From Solimonas aquatica (GTDB taxonomy: Bacteria; Pseudomonadota; Gammaproteobacteria; Nevskiales; Nevskiaceae), in assembly GCF_900111015.1 (NCBI RefSeq), contig NZ_FOFS01000017.1, positions 62,163-100,524 of the forward strand: a DNA stretch of 38,362 nt, in the 5' to 3' direction. The notes below the pieces were generated by a model, which searched no databases, was not told the origin of the DNA, and saw only the letters and a list, made by a program, of their open reading frames with translations. Numbering within the stretch: position 1 is the stretch's first letter; the number at the start of each line of letters is the position of its first letter. Of the stretch, positions 15,591 through 18,200 are shown in pieces. Made by a program: the position numbers and the translations under genes.

Positions 15591-16760
15591 ATGTCCGAAA
15601 CCCTGCGCGATCTGTTTCTGCTCGACCCCGAGCTGGTGTTCCTCAACCACGGCTCCTTCGGTGCCCTGCCGCGCGAGGTCTGGGAAGCGCAGCAGCGCTG
15701 GCAGCTGGAGATGGAACGCAATCCGGTGGCGTTTCTGGGCCGGCGCTCGGCGATCCTGCTGCGCGAGGCGCGCGAAGCGCTCGGCACGGCGCTGGGCGCA
15801 GCGGCCGGACATCTGGTGTTCATGCCCAATGCCACCACCGGCGTGAACGTGGTGGCGCAGTCGCTGCGCCTGCAGGCCGGCGATGAGGTGCTGGCCAGCG
15901 ATCTGGAATACGGCGCCTGCGACGCGGCCTGGGAACATCTCTGCGCCAGACAGGGCGCGCACTACCGGCGCGTGGAGATCCCCCTGCCCTATCAGCGCGA
16001 GCACGTGCTGGCGCGCCTGCTCGCTGCCATCACGCCGCGCACGCGCCTGATTTTTCTCAGCCACATCAGCTCCACCACCGCGCTGATTCTGCCGGTGGCC
16101 GAGCTGTGCCAGGCGGCGCGCGAGCGCGGCATTCTCACGCTCATCGATGGCGCACACGCGCCGGGCCAGATCGCGCTGGACATCGAAGCGGTGGGCGCGG
16201 ATTTCTACGCGGGCAACTGCCACAAATGGCTGTGCGCACCCAAGGGCGCGGGCTTTCTCTACGCGCGGCCCGAGCATCACGGCCTGCTCGAACCCACGGT
16301 GCTGAGCTGGGGTTATGCCGCCAGCCGCGCCGGACATTCGGGCTTCGATGCGTATCTGGGTCGCAGCCTGTTCGAGCGGCGCATGCAGTGGCAGGGCACG
16401 CGCGATATCTCGGCCTGGCTGGCGGTGCCGGCGGCGCTGGCCTTTCAGGCGCGGCACGACTGGCCGGCGCAGCGCGCACGCTGTCATGCCCTGGCCGCGC
16501 AGGCCCTGCACACGCTCACGCAGCGCTTCGGCCTGTCCCCCATCGCACAGGATCAGGACTGGGCGCAGATGGTGGCGATTCCGGTGCCGGCGCAGGACCC
16601 CGAAAGCCTGCGGCGAAGCCTGTTCGAAGACAGCGGCATCGAAATTCCGGTGACGTATCACGGTGGCCAAGTGTTCGTGCGCCTCTCGGTGCAGGCCTAC
16701 AACTCGGCGGATGATGTCGCTCGTCTGCTCGCCGCACCCGCCCTGCAGATCGGCGCTTGA
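15591..16760 (+). CDS. Class V aminotransferase (isopenicillin-N-epimerase-like)
   Basis: A 389-residue PLP enzyme of aspartate aminotransferase fold type I, class V. Seen: the N-terminal FLNHGSFGALPREV, characteristic of the isopenicillin N epimerase-like subfamily, phosphate-binding NATTGVNVVA (80-89), Asp186 in LIDGAHAPGQ and the Schiff-base Lys212 in GNCHKWLCAPKG. Members act as epimerases, cysteine desulfhydrases or ergothioneine-pathway lyases, so the substrate is not determined. It starts 43 bp after the EamA gene and may be co-transcribed with it. Its last codons contain the -35 of the promoter for the next transcript. Confidence 0.9.
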   Translation: MSETLRDLFLLDPELVFLNHGSFGALPREVWEAQQRWQLEMERNPVAFLGRRSAILLREAREALGTALGAAAGHLVFMPNATTGVNVVAQSLRLQAGDEVLASDLEYGACDAAWEHLCARQGAHYRRVEIPLPYQREHVLARLLAAITPRTRLIFLSHISSTTALILPVAELCQAARERGILTLIDGAHAPGQIALDIEAVGADFYAGNCHKWLCAPKGAGFLYARPEHHGLLEPTVLSWGYAASRAGHSGFDAYLGRSLFERRMQWQGTRDISAWLAVPAALAFQARHDWPAQRARCHALAAQALHTLTQRFGLSPIAQDQDWAQMVAIPVPAQDPESLRRSLFEDSGIEIPVTYHGGQVFVRLSVQAYNSADDVARLLAAPALQIGA

Positions 16761-16785
16761 CGGCATCGCGCTTTGCTCTCAGTAT
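16757..16785 (+). promoter_or_regulatory. Candidate promoter of the leader/argD transcript
   Basis: TTGACG (16757-16762), a 17-bp spacer and CAGTAT (16780-16785, keeping the A2, A5 and T6 consensus bases). The -35 overlaps the stop codon of the preceding gene. Transcription would begin near 16792, essentially at the ATG of the leader reading frame at 16794, so the mRNA may be leaderless. Confidence 0.5.
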
Positions 16786-16793
16786 CCGCGCCC

Positions 16794-16892
16794 ATGTTGA
16801 ACGCCATCACCATCCGAGCCCGAGCTGCCAGCCGCCGCGCCATGCGCTGCGCGGCCTTGCGCGTTTGCCGGAACCGGGATCGGATCAGCTAG
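16794..16892 (+). CDS. Candidate arginine-rich leader peptide
   Basis: A 32-codon frame (ATG 16794, TAG 16890-16892) with nine Arg codons: CGA at 16815 and 16821, CGC-CGC at 16833-16838, CGC at 16845 and 16860, CGG at 16869, 16875 and 16881. It lies between a promoter and an intrinsic terminator upstream of an ArgD-type gene, the position of amino-acid operon leader peptides. No Shine-Dalgarno is visible, but the predicted transcript start is at the ATG. The peptide itself probably has no function; ribosome stalling on Arg codons would be the signal. Part of the Arg excess could come from high GC. Confidence 0.5.
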   Translation: MLNAITIRARAASRRAMRCAALRVCRNRDRIS

Positions 16893-16946
16893 CAAAAACC
16901 CCAGACCAGCAACACGAAAAGGCCGCGGACTCCGCGGCCTTTTTTG
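16834..16946 (+). promoter_or_regulatory. Candidate ribosome-mediated transcription attenuator (arginine)
   Basis: Three exclusive pairings are visible. The protector hairpin is GCCGCGC (16834-16840) with GCGCGGC (16849-16855). The antiterminator is CGCGGCCTT (16850-16858) with AAGGCCGCG (16919-16927), nine perfect pairs. The terminator is AAGGCCGCGG (16919-16928) with CCGCGGCCTT (16932-16941), then T to 16945. A ribosome stalled on CGC-CGC at 16833-16838 would mask the protector arm, freeing 16850-16858 to break the terminator. This is the logic of his, trp and ilv attenuators, here with Arg codons before an acetylornithine-aminotransferase-type gene. Function is inferred from structure. Confidence 0.6.
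16917..16946 (+). terminator. Intrinsic terminator upstream of the ArgD-type gene
   Basis: Stem AAGGCCGCGG / CCGCGGCCTT with loop ACT (16929-16931), extended by an A/T stretch to 12 bp, and a run of six T (16940-16945). It ends 37 bp before the downstream ATG. It may also end transcripts reading out of the aminotransferase V gene. Confidence 0.9.
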
Positions 16947-16982
16947 TTGTTCGCCTTTTCGCAAACCACCCGAAGAACCGTC

Positions 16983-18200
16983 ATGAACACCGTCGTCGAA
17001 GGCCATCCCCGCCATCTCATGAACATCACGCCCAGACCCGAGGCCGTCATGGTCCGCGGTCGCGGCTCCTGGCTCTGGGACAGCGCCGGCCGTCGCTATC
17101 TGGACTTCGTGCAGGGCTGGGCCGTGAACTGCCTGGGCCACAGCCATCCGGCGCTGACGCAGGCGCTCACGCAGCAGGCCGGCGAGCTGCTCACGCCCAG
17201 CCCGGCGTATCACAACGCCCAGGCCCTGCGCCTGGCGACGCGGCTGGCGCAGCTCACGGGTCTGGCGCAGGTGTTCTTCGCCAGCTCCGGTGCCGAGGCC
17301 AATGAGGGCGCGATCAAGCTCGCACGCAAATGGGGCCGCCTGCATCGCGGCGGCGCCTGGAAGATCATCACCCTGCACAAGGGCTATCACGGCCGCACCC
17401 TGGCGACGATGTCGGCCACCGGCAAGCCGGGCTGGGGCAGCATGTTCGCGCCGCAGGTGCCGGGCTTCGTCAAGGCCCAGCTCAATGATCTGGCCAGCGT
17501 CGAGGCGCTGATCGATGCCGACACCGTGGCGCTGATGCTGGAGCTGGTGCAGGGCGAGGCCGGTGTGCACGGCGCCACGCCCGAGTTTGCGCAGGGTTTG
17601 CGCCAGCTCTGCGATCGTCACGGCCTGCTGCTGATCGTCGATGAGGTGCAGACCGGCATCGGCCGGCTGGGCACGCTGTTCGGCTGCCAGCGCTACGGCA
17701 TCAGCCCCGACATCATGACCCTGGGCAAGGGCCTGGGCGGCGGCGTGCCGCTCACCGCGCTGCTGGCCAGCGCCTCGGCGAGCTGCTTCGACTACGGCGA
17801 GCAGGGCGGCACCTTCTGCGGCAATCCCTTCACCGCCGCGGCCGGCAATGCGGTGCTGGACGTGGTGGCGCAGGCGGAATTCCTGGCCGAGGTGCGGGCG
17901 CGGAGCGCACAGCTGCAGGCCGGCCTGCGCGCGCTGCAGCAGCGCCATCAGCTTGCGGAGGTGCGCGCCTTTGGTCTGCTGCAGGCCCTGGAGCTGGGGC
18001 CGGGCCGCAATGCCACGGCGCTGGCCGCCGCCGCGCTGGAACGCGGTCTGCTGCTCAATGCGCCGAACCCCGGCTGCCTGCGTCTGATGCCGGCGCTGAA
18101 CGTGCGCAGCGAGGAGATCGAGCAGATGCTGGAGATGCTCGATGCGCTGCTGGCCGAACCGTGCGCGCAGACACCCGCGCGCTGCGCGCTCAGCGCCTAG
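16983..18200 (+). CDS. argD: Acetylornithine-aminotransferase-type (ArgD-like) class III aminotransferase
   Basis: A 405-residue PLP enzyme that, as ArgD, interconverts N-acetylglutamate semialdehyde and N-acetylornithine in arginine synthesis. Seen: SSGAEANEGAIKLARKWG (101-118), YHGRT (135-139), Asp220 in IVDEVQTGIGR and the PLP Lys249 in TLGKGLGGGVPL. The length is typical. The ATG at 16983 lies 37 bp after a terminator that looks like part of an Arg attenuator, which favours an arginine role over GABA or ornithine transaminase relatives, though those cannot be excluded. The TAG stop belongs to a CTAG at the edge of a 160-bp palindromic element that may have inserted there. Confidence 0.85.
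   Translation: MNTVVEGHPRHLMNITPRPEAVMVRGRGSWLWDSAGRRYLDFVQGWAVNCLGHSHPALTQALTQQAGELLTPSPAYHNAQALRLATRLAQLTGLAQVFFASSGAEANEGAIKLARKWGRLHRGGAWKIITLHKGYHGRTLATMSATGKPGWGSMFAPQVPGFVKAQLNDLASVEALIDADTVALMLELVQGEAGVHGATPEFAQGLRQLCDRHGLLLIVDEVQTGIGRLGTLFGCQRYGISPDIMTLGKGLGGGVPLTALLASASASCFDYGEQGGTFCGNPFTAAAGNAVLDVVAQAEFLAEVRARSAQLQAGLRALQQRHQLAEVRAFGLLQALELGPGRNATALAAAALERGLLLNAPNPGCLRLMPALNVRSEEIEQMLEMLDALLAEPCAQTPARCALSA

Follow-up and report, generated by a model that had tools for sequence, protein, structure and literature searches.

An arginine-rich leader upstream of argD in Solimonas aquatica

The window examined here is a 38,362-nt stretch of Solimonas aquatica DNA (contig NZ_FOFS01000017.1), and all coordinates are window positions. 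Within it, an argD-type acetylornithine transaminase gene is preceded by a region (16757-16983) with promoter-like elements, a short open reading frame (ORF) rich in Arg codons and an intrinsic terminator. Comparison with related loci indicates that this region is very likely a conserved, horizontally shared arginine-codon attenuator placed before argD. The argD product is a class-III aminotransferase (PF00202) that scored 378.8 bits with profile NF002325 (cut-off 372), and fell below the cut-offs for NF002985/PRK03715 (557.9; cut-off 568) and TIGR00707 (386.2; cut-off 410). The upstream neighbor (15591-16760) is a class-V aminotransferase gene (PF00266) whose product resembles cysteine-desulfurase-like enzymes and whose stop codon lies inside the -35 element of the attenuator.

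A sequence-only reading of this DNA had proposed most of the parts listed in Table 1, and these were found where it had placed them: a promoter-like TTGACG-N17-CAGTAT pair, a 32-codon frame with nine Arg codons (16794-16892), a protector hairpin of seven perfect pairs (16834-16840/16849-16855), an antiterminator of nine perfect pairs (16850-16858/16919-16927) and a terminator (16916-16944) that shares an arm with the antiterminator. The terminator has 13 pairs, a 3-nt loop and a T run, and is located between the leader ORF and argD. The promoter scores a modest 8/12, under the 9/12 cut of a consensus scan which lists no promoter. The nine Arg codons are CGA at codons 8 and 10, CGC at codons 14, 15, 18 and 23, and CGG at codons 26, 28 and 30, with the longest run being two. 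The leader at locus L248, which derives from another genus of the same family, is identical to that of the window in length, stop codon and codon register.

Table 1. Predicted elements of the leader region and its target gene, in window positions.
Feature	Position	Strand	Remarks
-35 element TTGACG	16757..16762	+	5/6 consensus match; overlaps stop codon of upstream gene
-10 element CAGTAT	16780..16785	+	3/6 consensus match; 17 nt after -35; 8 nt 5' of leader ATG
Leader peptide ORF	16794..16892	+	32 codons + TAG; encodes MLNAITIRARAASRRAMRCAALRVCRNRDRIS; predicted leaderless
Codons 8-10, CGA-GCC-CGA	16815..16823	+	Apparent remnant of family Arg run; L248 has CGA-CGT-CGA there
Codons 14-15, CGC-CGC	16833..16838	+	Predicted stall codons; occupancy would cover region 1 and free region 2
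Region 1, 5' protector arm	16834..16840	+	Seven perfect pairs with 16849-16855; 8-nt loop
Region 2	16849..16858	+	3' protector arm (16849-16855) and 5' antiterminator arm (16850-16858)
Region 3, terminator 5' arm	16916..16928	+	16919-16927 doubles as 3' antiterminator arm
Region 4, terminator 3' arm and U tract	16932..16945	+	Terminator prediction
argD-type acetylornithine transaminase gene	16983..18200	+	Predicted target of leader; profile matches

Among 5000 dinucleotide shuffles of 16761-16915, 28 contained an ATG-initiated ORF of 15-45 codons in which nine or more codons specified Arg, including an Arg pair. The duplex between the window leader and the terminator arm (-21.2 kcal/mol) was equalled in 3% of 200 shuffles (z -2.5), and the fold of the leader with the terminator was only modestly more stable than those of shuffles (z -1.75, with 15 of 200 shuffles as good). 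The minimum-energy fold of the leader also contains a larger hairpin than the three simple arms first proposed. A single copy with these properties is suggestive; the case rests on the comparison of relatives. Set beside them, the window copy is a weakened or degraded example of a stronger family.

Conservation of Arg-run leaders upstream of argD

The argD sample consisted of the best 80 of 451 relatives, argD genes from 22 of 150 and 41 of 199 genomes, and one further genome. Two loci were dropped (L173, no upstream DNA; L174, a duplicate), and taking 15 duplicates out of 142 upstream regions left 127 distinct regions upstream of betaproteobacterial-type argD, the window included. A strong terminator within 160 nt of argD was found in 43 of the 127 regions. 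Leaders were scored with an Arg-run rule, that is, an ATG ORF of 12-45 codons which ends near the terminator and encodes either three consecutive arginines (RRR) or a pair (RR) together with at least five arginines.

An Arg-run leader was present in 37 of the 43 strong-terminator regions, compared to 3.6 predicted by shuffles of the upstream stretch, and RRR was present in 29, compared to 1.0 predicted. Among 29 control argD genes of the window's own lineage, 12 had a strong terminator and one of these 12 passed the rule (1.4 expected); no conserved Arg leader was evident at these usual argD copies. No Arg-run ATG leader of this kind before a terminator was seen by eye at the second argD copy of the window genome or of ten betaproteobacterial genomes, with two of the stretches truncated at a contig end. 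In a 14-row alignment, four of the ten pairs predicted for the terminator stem have changed on both sides. The pattern first noticed is genuine and not a chance occurrence. The expectation in the sequence-only reading that relatives would keep terminator, Arg-rich frame and antiterminator together was borne out, but the relatives that matter belong for the most part to the Rhodocyclales and other Burkholderiales rather than to the window's lineage. Azospira oryzae DSM 21223 (L051) is one strain in which the device is intact. Retention of the terminator without the Arg frame or the antiterminator, which would have argued against an attenuator, was not the pattern seen: all three were kept, with Arg-run leaders at the 37 loci noted above. 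Further analyses used 40 leaders, comprising the 37 that pass the rule and three added by eye (L114, L161 and L170). Alignment A2 and covariance model R1 were built from 38 of the 40, with L045 and L151 excluded.

Promoter spacing and the leader start

When the 40 leaders were aligned on the ATG, A was found at -11 in 26, T at -7 in 21 and C at -1 in 34. In 20 of the 40 the motif TTGAC falls between -45 and -26 relative to the leader ATG. A promoter score of at least 8 at ATG-linked spacing was obtained for 23 of the 40 members compared to 1.1% of control offsets, a count that can be flattered by hand-picking of the start codon in leaders with more than one in-frame ATG (e.g., L046, L092, L121 and L167). 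A Shine-Dalgarno-like motif precedes the leader ATG in none of the 40. These patterns describe a sigma-70-like promoter whose spacing would put the transcript start on the leader ATG or adjacent to it, so that the leader would be translated from a leaderless message. The same coincidence of transcript start and ATG had been predicted previously for the window, and the family agrees with it. In 39 of the 40 leaders the first Arg pair lies within ~50 nt of the predicted transcript start.

Arm fit, ribosome masking and codon choice

As region 2 shifts between subclades, a swapped-arm test replaced column-wise analysis of antiterminator covariation. Duplexes between leaders and their own terminator arms averaged -17.37 kcal/mol, whereas swapped combinations averaged -15.49 ± 0.38 kcal/mol and none of 200 permutations was as good; the test does not fully remove the relatedness of the loci. 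Terminator arms therefore fit their own leaders better than those of other loci.

The consequences of ribosome position were modeled by folding the transcript as far as the terminator loop while masking it up to 12 nt past the start of the A-site codon. The model is thermodynamic, with an assumed footprint and no kinetics. Mean antiterminator pairing probability for the 40 leaders was 0.55 when free of ribosomes, 0.78 when a stalled ribosome occupied the first Arg run and 0.42 when the ribosome was at the stop codon. Corresponding values for the window were 0.64, 0.81 and 0.42, and the rise from 0.64 to 0.81 on masking is in line with the previous suggestion that stalling at CGC-CGC would mask the protector arm. 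Pairing in the stalled state exceeded that in the free state in 32 of 40 leaders, and that at the stop codon in 38 of 40. The mean stall-minus-free difference was +0.24 vs. -0.02 ± 0.02 in shuffled leaders, and the stall-minus-stop difference was +0.36 vs. +0.11 ± 0.03. Fourteen further argD loci, which lie outside the conservation, swapped-arm and masking sets but were found by R1 and so are not independent of that model, gave values of +0.28 vs. -0.03 ± 0.04 and +0.31 vs. +0.12 ± 0.06, respectively; one of them, L241, lacks an Arg pair. When plotted by ribosome position, mean pairing was 0.65-0.72 at codons 2-7 and 0.74-0.79 at codons 8-16, and then fell through 0.71, 0.63, 0.55 and 0.50 from codon 17 on. 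The first Arg pair begins at codons 7-17 in 38 of the 40 leaders. In the model, the Arg run thus sits at the codons where a stalled ribosome would favor the antiterminator.

In 34 of the 40 leaders, the first Arg run opens with CGA. This codon accounts for 35 of 927 Arg codons in the argD bodies and for 38 of 235 of the other leader Arg codons. The window is an exception, as its CGA codons are separated (codons 8 and 10) and its sole Arg pair is CGC-CGC.

An additional argD gene in a genome with no PF01316 match

The best ArgD matches in 40 relatives of the window genome share 39-46% identity with the window protein, and Rhodocyclales and other Burkholderiales possess relatives at 54-70% identity. 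The window genome also has a second ArgD-type gene, on contig 25, whose product is 44% identical to the window ArgD. By these comparisons the window argD is of betaproteobacterial type and additional to the argD that belongs to the lineage. A tree of 137 rows was built with a quick method, which warns of long branches, and included 10 of the 29 own-lineage ArgD rows. The window ArgD was placed in a group of seven rows with Niveibacterium, Uliginosibacterium and kin (Shimodaira-Hasegawa-like approximate likelihood ratio test, SH-aLRT, 98), all of which bear the attenuator. It stood apart from the ten own-lineage proteins (support 100) on a long end branch. The attenuator label changes 14 times on the tree, compared to 34.7 times in shuffles, which implies several gains or losses of the device.

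Among 58 genomes examined of the window's family, the device was detected at an expectation value (E) <1e-12 in three: the window genome, G658 and G648. The G658 locus is L248, an attenuator-argD unit in which RRR is kept, the leader is in the codon register of the window and ArgD is 74.6% identical. The G648 unit (L247) specifies an ArgD that is 60.3% identical, in an assembly marked as 9% contaminated. Acquisition of argD and its leader together by horizontal transfer is the simplest reading of these relationships. Separately, two metagenome bins labeled Klebsiella pneumoniae (L043) and Bordetella parapertussis (L045) carry betaproteobacterial-type argD with 59-60% identity, and these labels look doubtful.

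Arginine synthesis in bacteria is usually taught as being repressed by ArgR. The ArgR family PF01316 was detected in none of 18 genomes searched, that of the window included, in a search which covered PF01316 only and not the AraC-type ArgR of pseudomonads; the same family was found in 9 of 14 control genomes. Thirteen of the 18 genomes, including that of the window, have the attenuator and five do not (four relatives of the window genome and G148). Therefore, absence of ArgR alone does not predict the attenuator.

Proposed mechanism and alternative explanations

The element is best explained as a ribosome-mediated transcription attenuator upstream of argD that would read the charging of Arg-tRNA, a reading to which a probability of roughly 0.87 is assigned on the basis of sequence comparison and modeling. 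RNA polymerase would start on the leader ATG or adjacent to it, and the leaderless message would be engaged by a ribosome. With arginine plentiful, the ribosome would pass the Arg codons and region 2, region 2 could not hold region 3, the 3:4 terminator would form and RNA polymerase would stop before argD. When charged Arg-tRNA is short, the ribosome would stall on the Arg run, covering region 1 and leaving region 2 free. Region 2 would then pair with region 3 as the latter is made, the terminator would be pre-empted and argD would be transcribed. The device probably arrived with the betaproteobacterial-type argD that now stands beside the argD of the lineage.

Several observations weigh against this interpretation. 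The window copy lacks RRR and part of the Arg run has been lost (RAR...RR compared to RRR in L248). Six of the 43 strong-terminator regions fail the Arg-run rule (L036, L080, L089, L112, L114 and L170), of which L114 and L170 have RR leaders with fewer arginines, and one of the 12 control argD regions (L003) passes it. Strong terminators are lacking in 84 of the 127 regions, many from Bordetella and Achromobacter, and so by the terminator test no such device is present there. The leader/terminator-arm duplex falls short of z < -1 at 22 of the 40 loci. Masking at the stall position did not raise pairing above the free state in 8 of 40 leaders or above the stop-codon state in 2 of 40, and among the 14 further loci the difference was reversed for L239 (stall-minus-stop) and L229 (stall-minus-free). 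The peak over the Arg run is broad, as masking at codons 2-7 already gives 0.65-0.72. Moreover, the off state is not clean without translation, since ribosome-free pairing is 0.64 in the window and averages 0.55 in the family; the window values imply that the off state relies on a moving ribosome.

The strongest of the competing explanations, although an unlikely one, is that the nascent peptide or slow codons are sensed: an Arg-rich peptide or rare CGA codons would pause the ribosome in answer to arginine, ornithine, polyamine or translation speed, and not to uncharged Arg-tRNA, in the manner of SpeFL/orf34 or of the arginine attenuator peptide (AAP) of fungi. Stretches of positively charged residues are known to slow ribosomes, and CGA, which is rare in the argD genes concerned, starts the run in 34 of 40 leaders. 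In the orf34 leader of Salmonella speF, two consecutive Arg codons mediate regulation by arginine (PMC6386406). However, what the argD leaders conserve is where the Arg run lies with respect to the RNA arms, and the peptides are poorly conserved by eye outside the run. Arrest peptides normally retain specific residues.

It is very improbable that the terminator merely ends the upstream gene (15591-16760) with the Arg-rich frame as a by-product of GC-rich sequence. The region is indeed GC-rich, CGN codons are common, an intergenic terminator is ordinary and a leader as rich in Arg emerged in 28 of 5000 shuffles, so that one copy alone would not exclude this explanation. But the excess of Arg-run leaders (37 of 43 vs. 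3.6 expected) set against one in 12 for the control argD genes, the promoter that is spaced to the leader ATG with a -35 element overlapping the upstream stop codon, and the fit of terminator arms to their own leaders all speak against it. Least probable of all is that the terminated leader acts mainly in trans as a small RNA or small peptide with cis control of argD being secondary, as the conserved anatomy is that of cis attenuation, even though in Sinorhizobium meliloti both the trpL attenuator RNA, which begins with its leader ATG, and the peptide it encodes do act in trans (PMC7298713).

Related leaders upstream of other genes

Model R1 was used for a census of 399 Burkholderiales genomes in which seven candidates per genome were scored, so that the counts are lower bounds. 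At least 188 of the genomes have a match at E <=0.01. Inspection of 28 weaker places (E >=1.1e-8; 26 from the census and two from the window-family search) revealed ~20 without a recognizable leader, the first at E 2.4e-8. Use of R1 as a census at less strict values than E 5e-9 was therefore set aside, and classification was limited to places at E <=5e-9, of which there are at least 42 in at least 41 of the 399 genomes. The genes downstream of the 42 classified places encode ArgD (24), EamA transporters (16) and transglutaminase-like proteins (2). Of the 24 argD leaders, 23 have at least an Arg pair and 16 have RRR, with the proviso that R1 was trained on argD leaders and favors Arg runs, and that 13 of the 24 are in, or identical to, the training set. 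Outside the training set RRR occurs in 6 of 11 argD leaders, and it occurs in none of the 18 non-argD leaders among these places. In the sequences classified, the Arg run accompanies argD while the leader layout is shared more widely.

Leaders of the same layout precede EamA genes at L222, L226, L232, L234, L237, L240, L243, L244, L245, L249, L265, L267, L268, L269, L271, L274, L275, L281 and L285, with a PF00892 match shown for L240; L249 belongs to the window's own order. These leaders have a promoter spaced to the leader ATG, ~30-39 codons and a GGCC(A/G)C.. terminator. Many display a (V/I)R..P(C/V)...W pattern and none has RRR. Masking at Arg codons produced no rise in antiterminator pairing in 12 EamA leaders (-0.035 vs. 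-0.02 in shuffles; L288, one of the set, has no EamA match in its stretch), and arginine sensing is accordingly not claimed for them. A small chorismate-mutase-like gene lies between such a leader and the EamA gene at L235, L272 and L273 (PF01817 for L272; the other two by the appearance of their starts), which hints at a link with aromatic compounds. Leaders of the same layout also precede transglutaminase-like genes at L238, where the leader is Arg-rich, and L270 (PF01841 for L238).

A further leader, MNALHPVPVFRADNRRITRRLR, was found at L278 in G188, a genome that groups with Achromobacter. It has CGA-CGA and CGA-CGT pairs and a GGCCACGA terminator, and precedes a GNAT gene (PF00583) whose product resembles YpeA. 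The argD of G188 (L120) shows no terminator.

A broader proposal, which is offered tentatively and may well not hold, is that betaproteobacteria without ArgR run their arginine supply, and perhaps further genes, through a family of leaderless leader-peptide attenuators. This family would include the Arg-run leaders before the extra argD and the GNAT gene of the Achromobacter-like genome, as well as the leaders of the same layout before EamA genes, some with chorismate mutase, and transglutaminase-like genes. The argD unit would move between lineages as a self-regulated cassette with no need of a repressor.

Comparison with known systems

Among the matches listed, no attenuator of bacterial arginine biosynthesis was found in the open-access literature, a scope that does not take in the 2004 proteobacterial survey of Vitreschak et al.; the sequence-only reading likewise named no attenuator of this kind with Arg codons. 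The term argD does not occur in the main texts of PMC2864571, PMC2965389 and PMC8632094. Rfam 15 has no match at gathering score in the window, and among 14 loci scanned gave only two matches, both to riboswitches away from the leader. The switch is thus of a kind known for other amino acids and, as far as could be found, is undescribed for bacterial arginine synthesis. If confirmed, arginine biosynthesis would join the pathways that are sensed by ribosome-mediated attenuation, and the question of how arginine synthesis is adjusted in betaproteobacteria that lack ArgR would have an answer. It would also mean that a regulator built into the mRNA travels horizontally with its gene and can operate in a new host with no repressor dedicated to it.

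The fungal AAP (arg-2/CPA1) is an upstream ORF that senses arginine for the control of arginine synthesis, as is predicted of the argD leaders, but is a eukaryotic system in which nascent-peptide arrest acts on translation with no transcription terminator. The nearest arginine case is the orf34 (SpeFL) leader of Salmonella speF, in which two consecutive Arg codons sense arginine (PMC6386406). It differs in controlling an ornithine decarboxylase gene, and in acting through Rho, masking of the ribosome binding site and RNase G with no intrinsic terminator (PMC6386406). Identity with a SpeFL-type leader was rejected: the gene here is argD and the HIRRT-type core, as printed in PMC6386406, is absent from the argD leaders by eye.

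The leaderless trpL of S. meliloti (rnTrpL) shares attenuation and a 5' end at the leader ATG (PMC7298713), the latter being predicted for argD, whereas it responds to tryptophan, belongs to an alphaproteobacterium and has trans-acting products. The uORFC-8-2 leader of cysS in Rhodobacterales is likewise a comparatively predicted ribosome-mediated attenuator with tandem cognate codons (PMC8632094), but for cysteine and a tRNA synthetase gene. A betaproteobacterial carA motif in the same source is an extended hairpin with little covariation support (PMC8632094).

The attenuated operons of enteric bacteria are given as trp, his, leu, thr, ilv and pheA, with "many other organisms" added without a list (PMC1183508). 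The argD device is unlike these in its cognate amino acid, arginine, which is absent from that enteric list (PMC1183508), in the position of the leader ATG at the predicted transcript start, and in the predicted control of an extra argD copy. It is like them in its short ORF with a run of cognate codons, its alternative 1:2, 2:3 and 3:4 pairings, its intrinsic terminator and the biosynthetic gene downstream.

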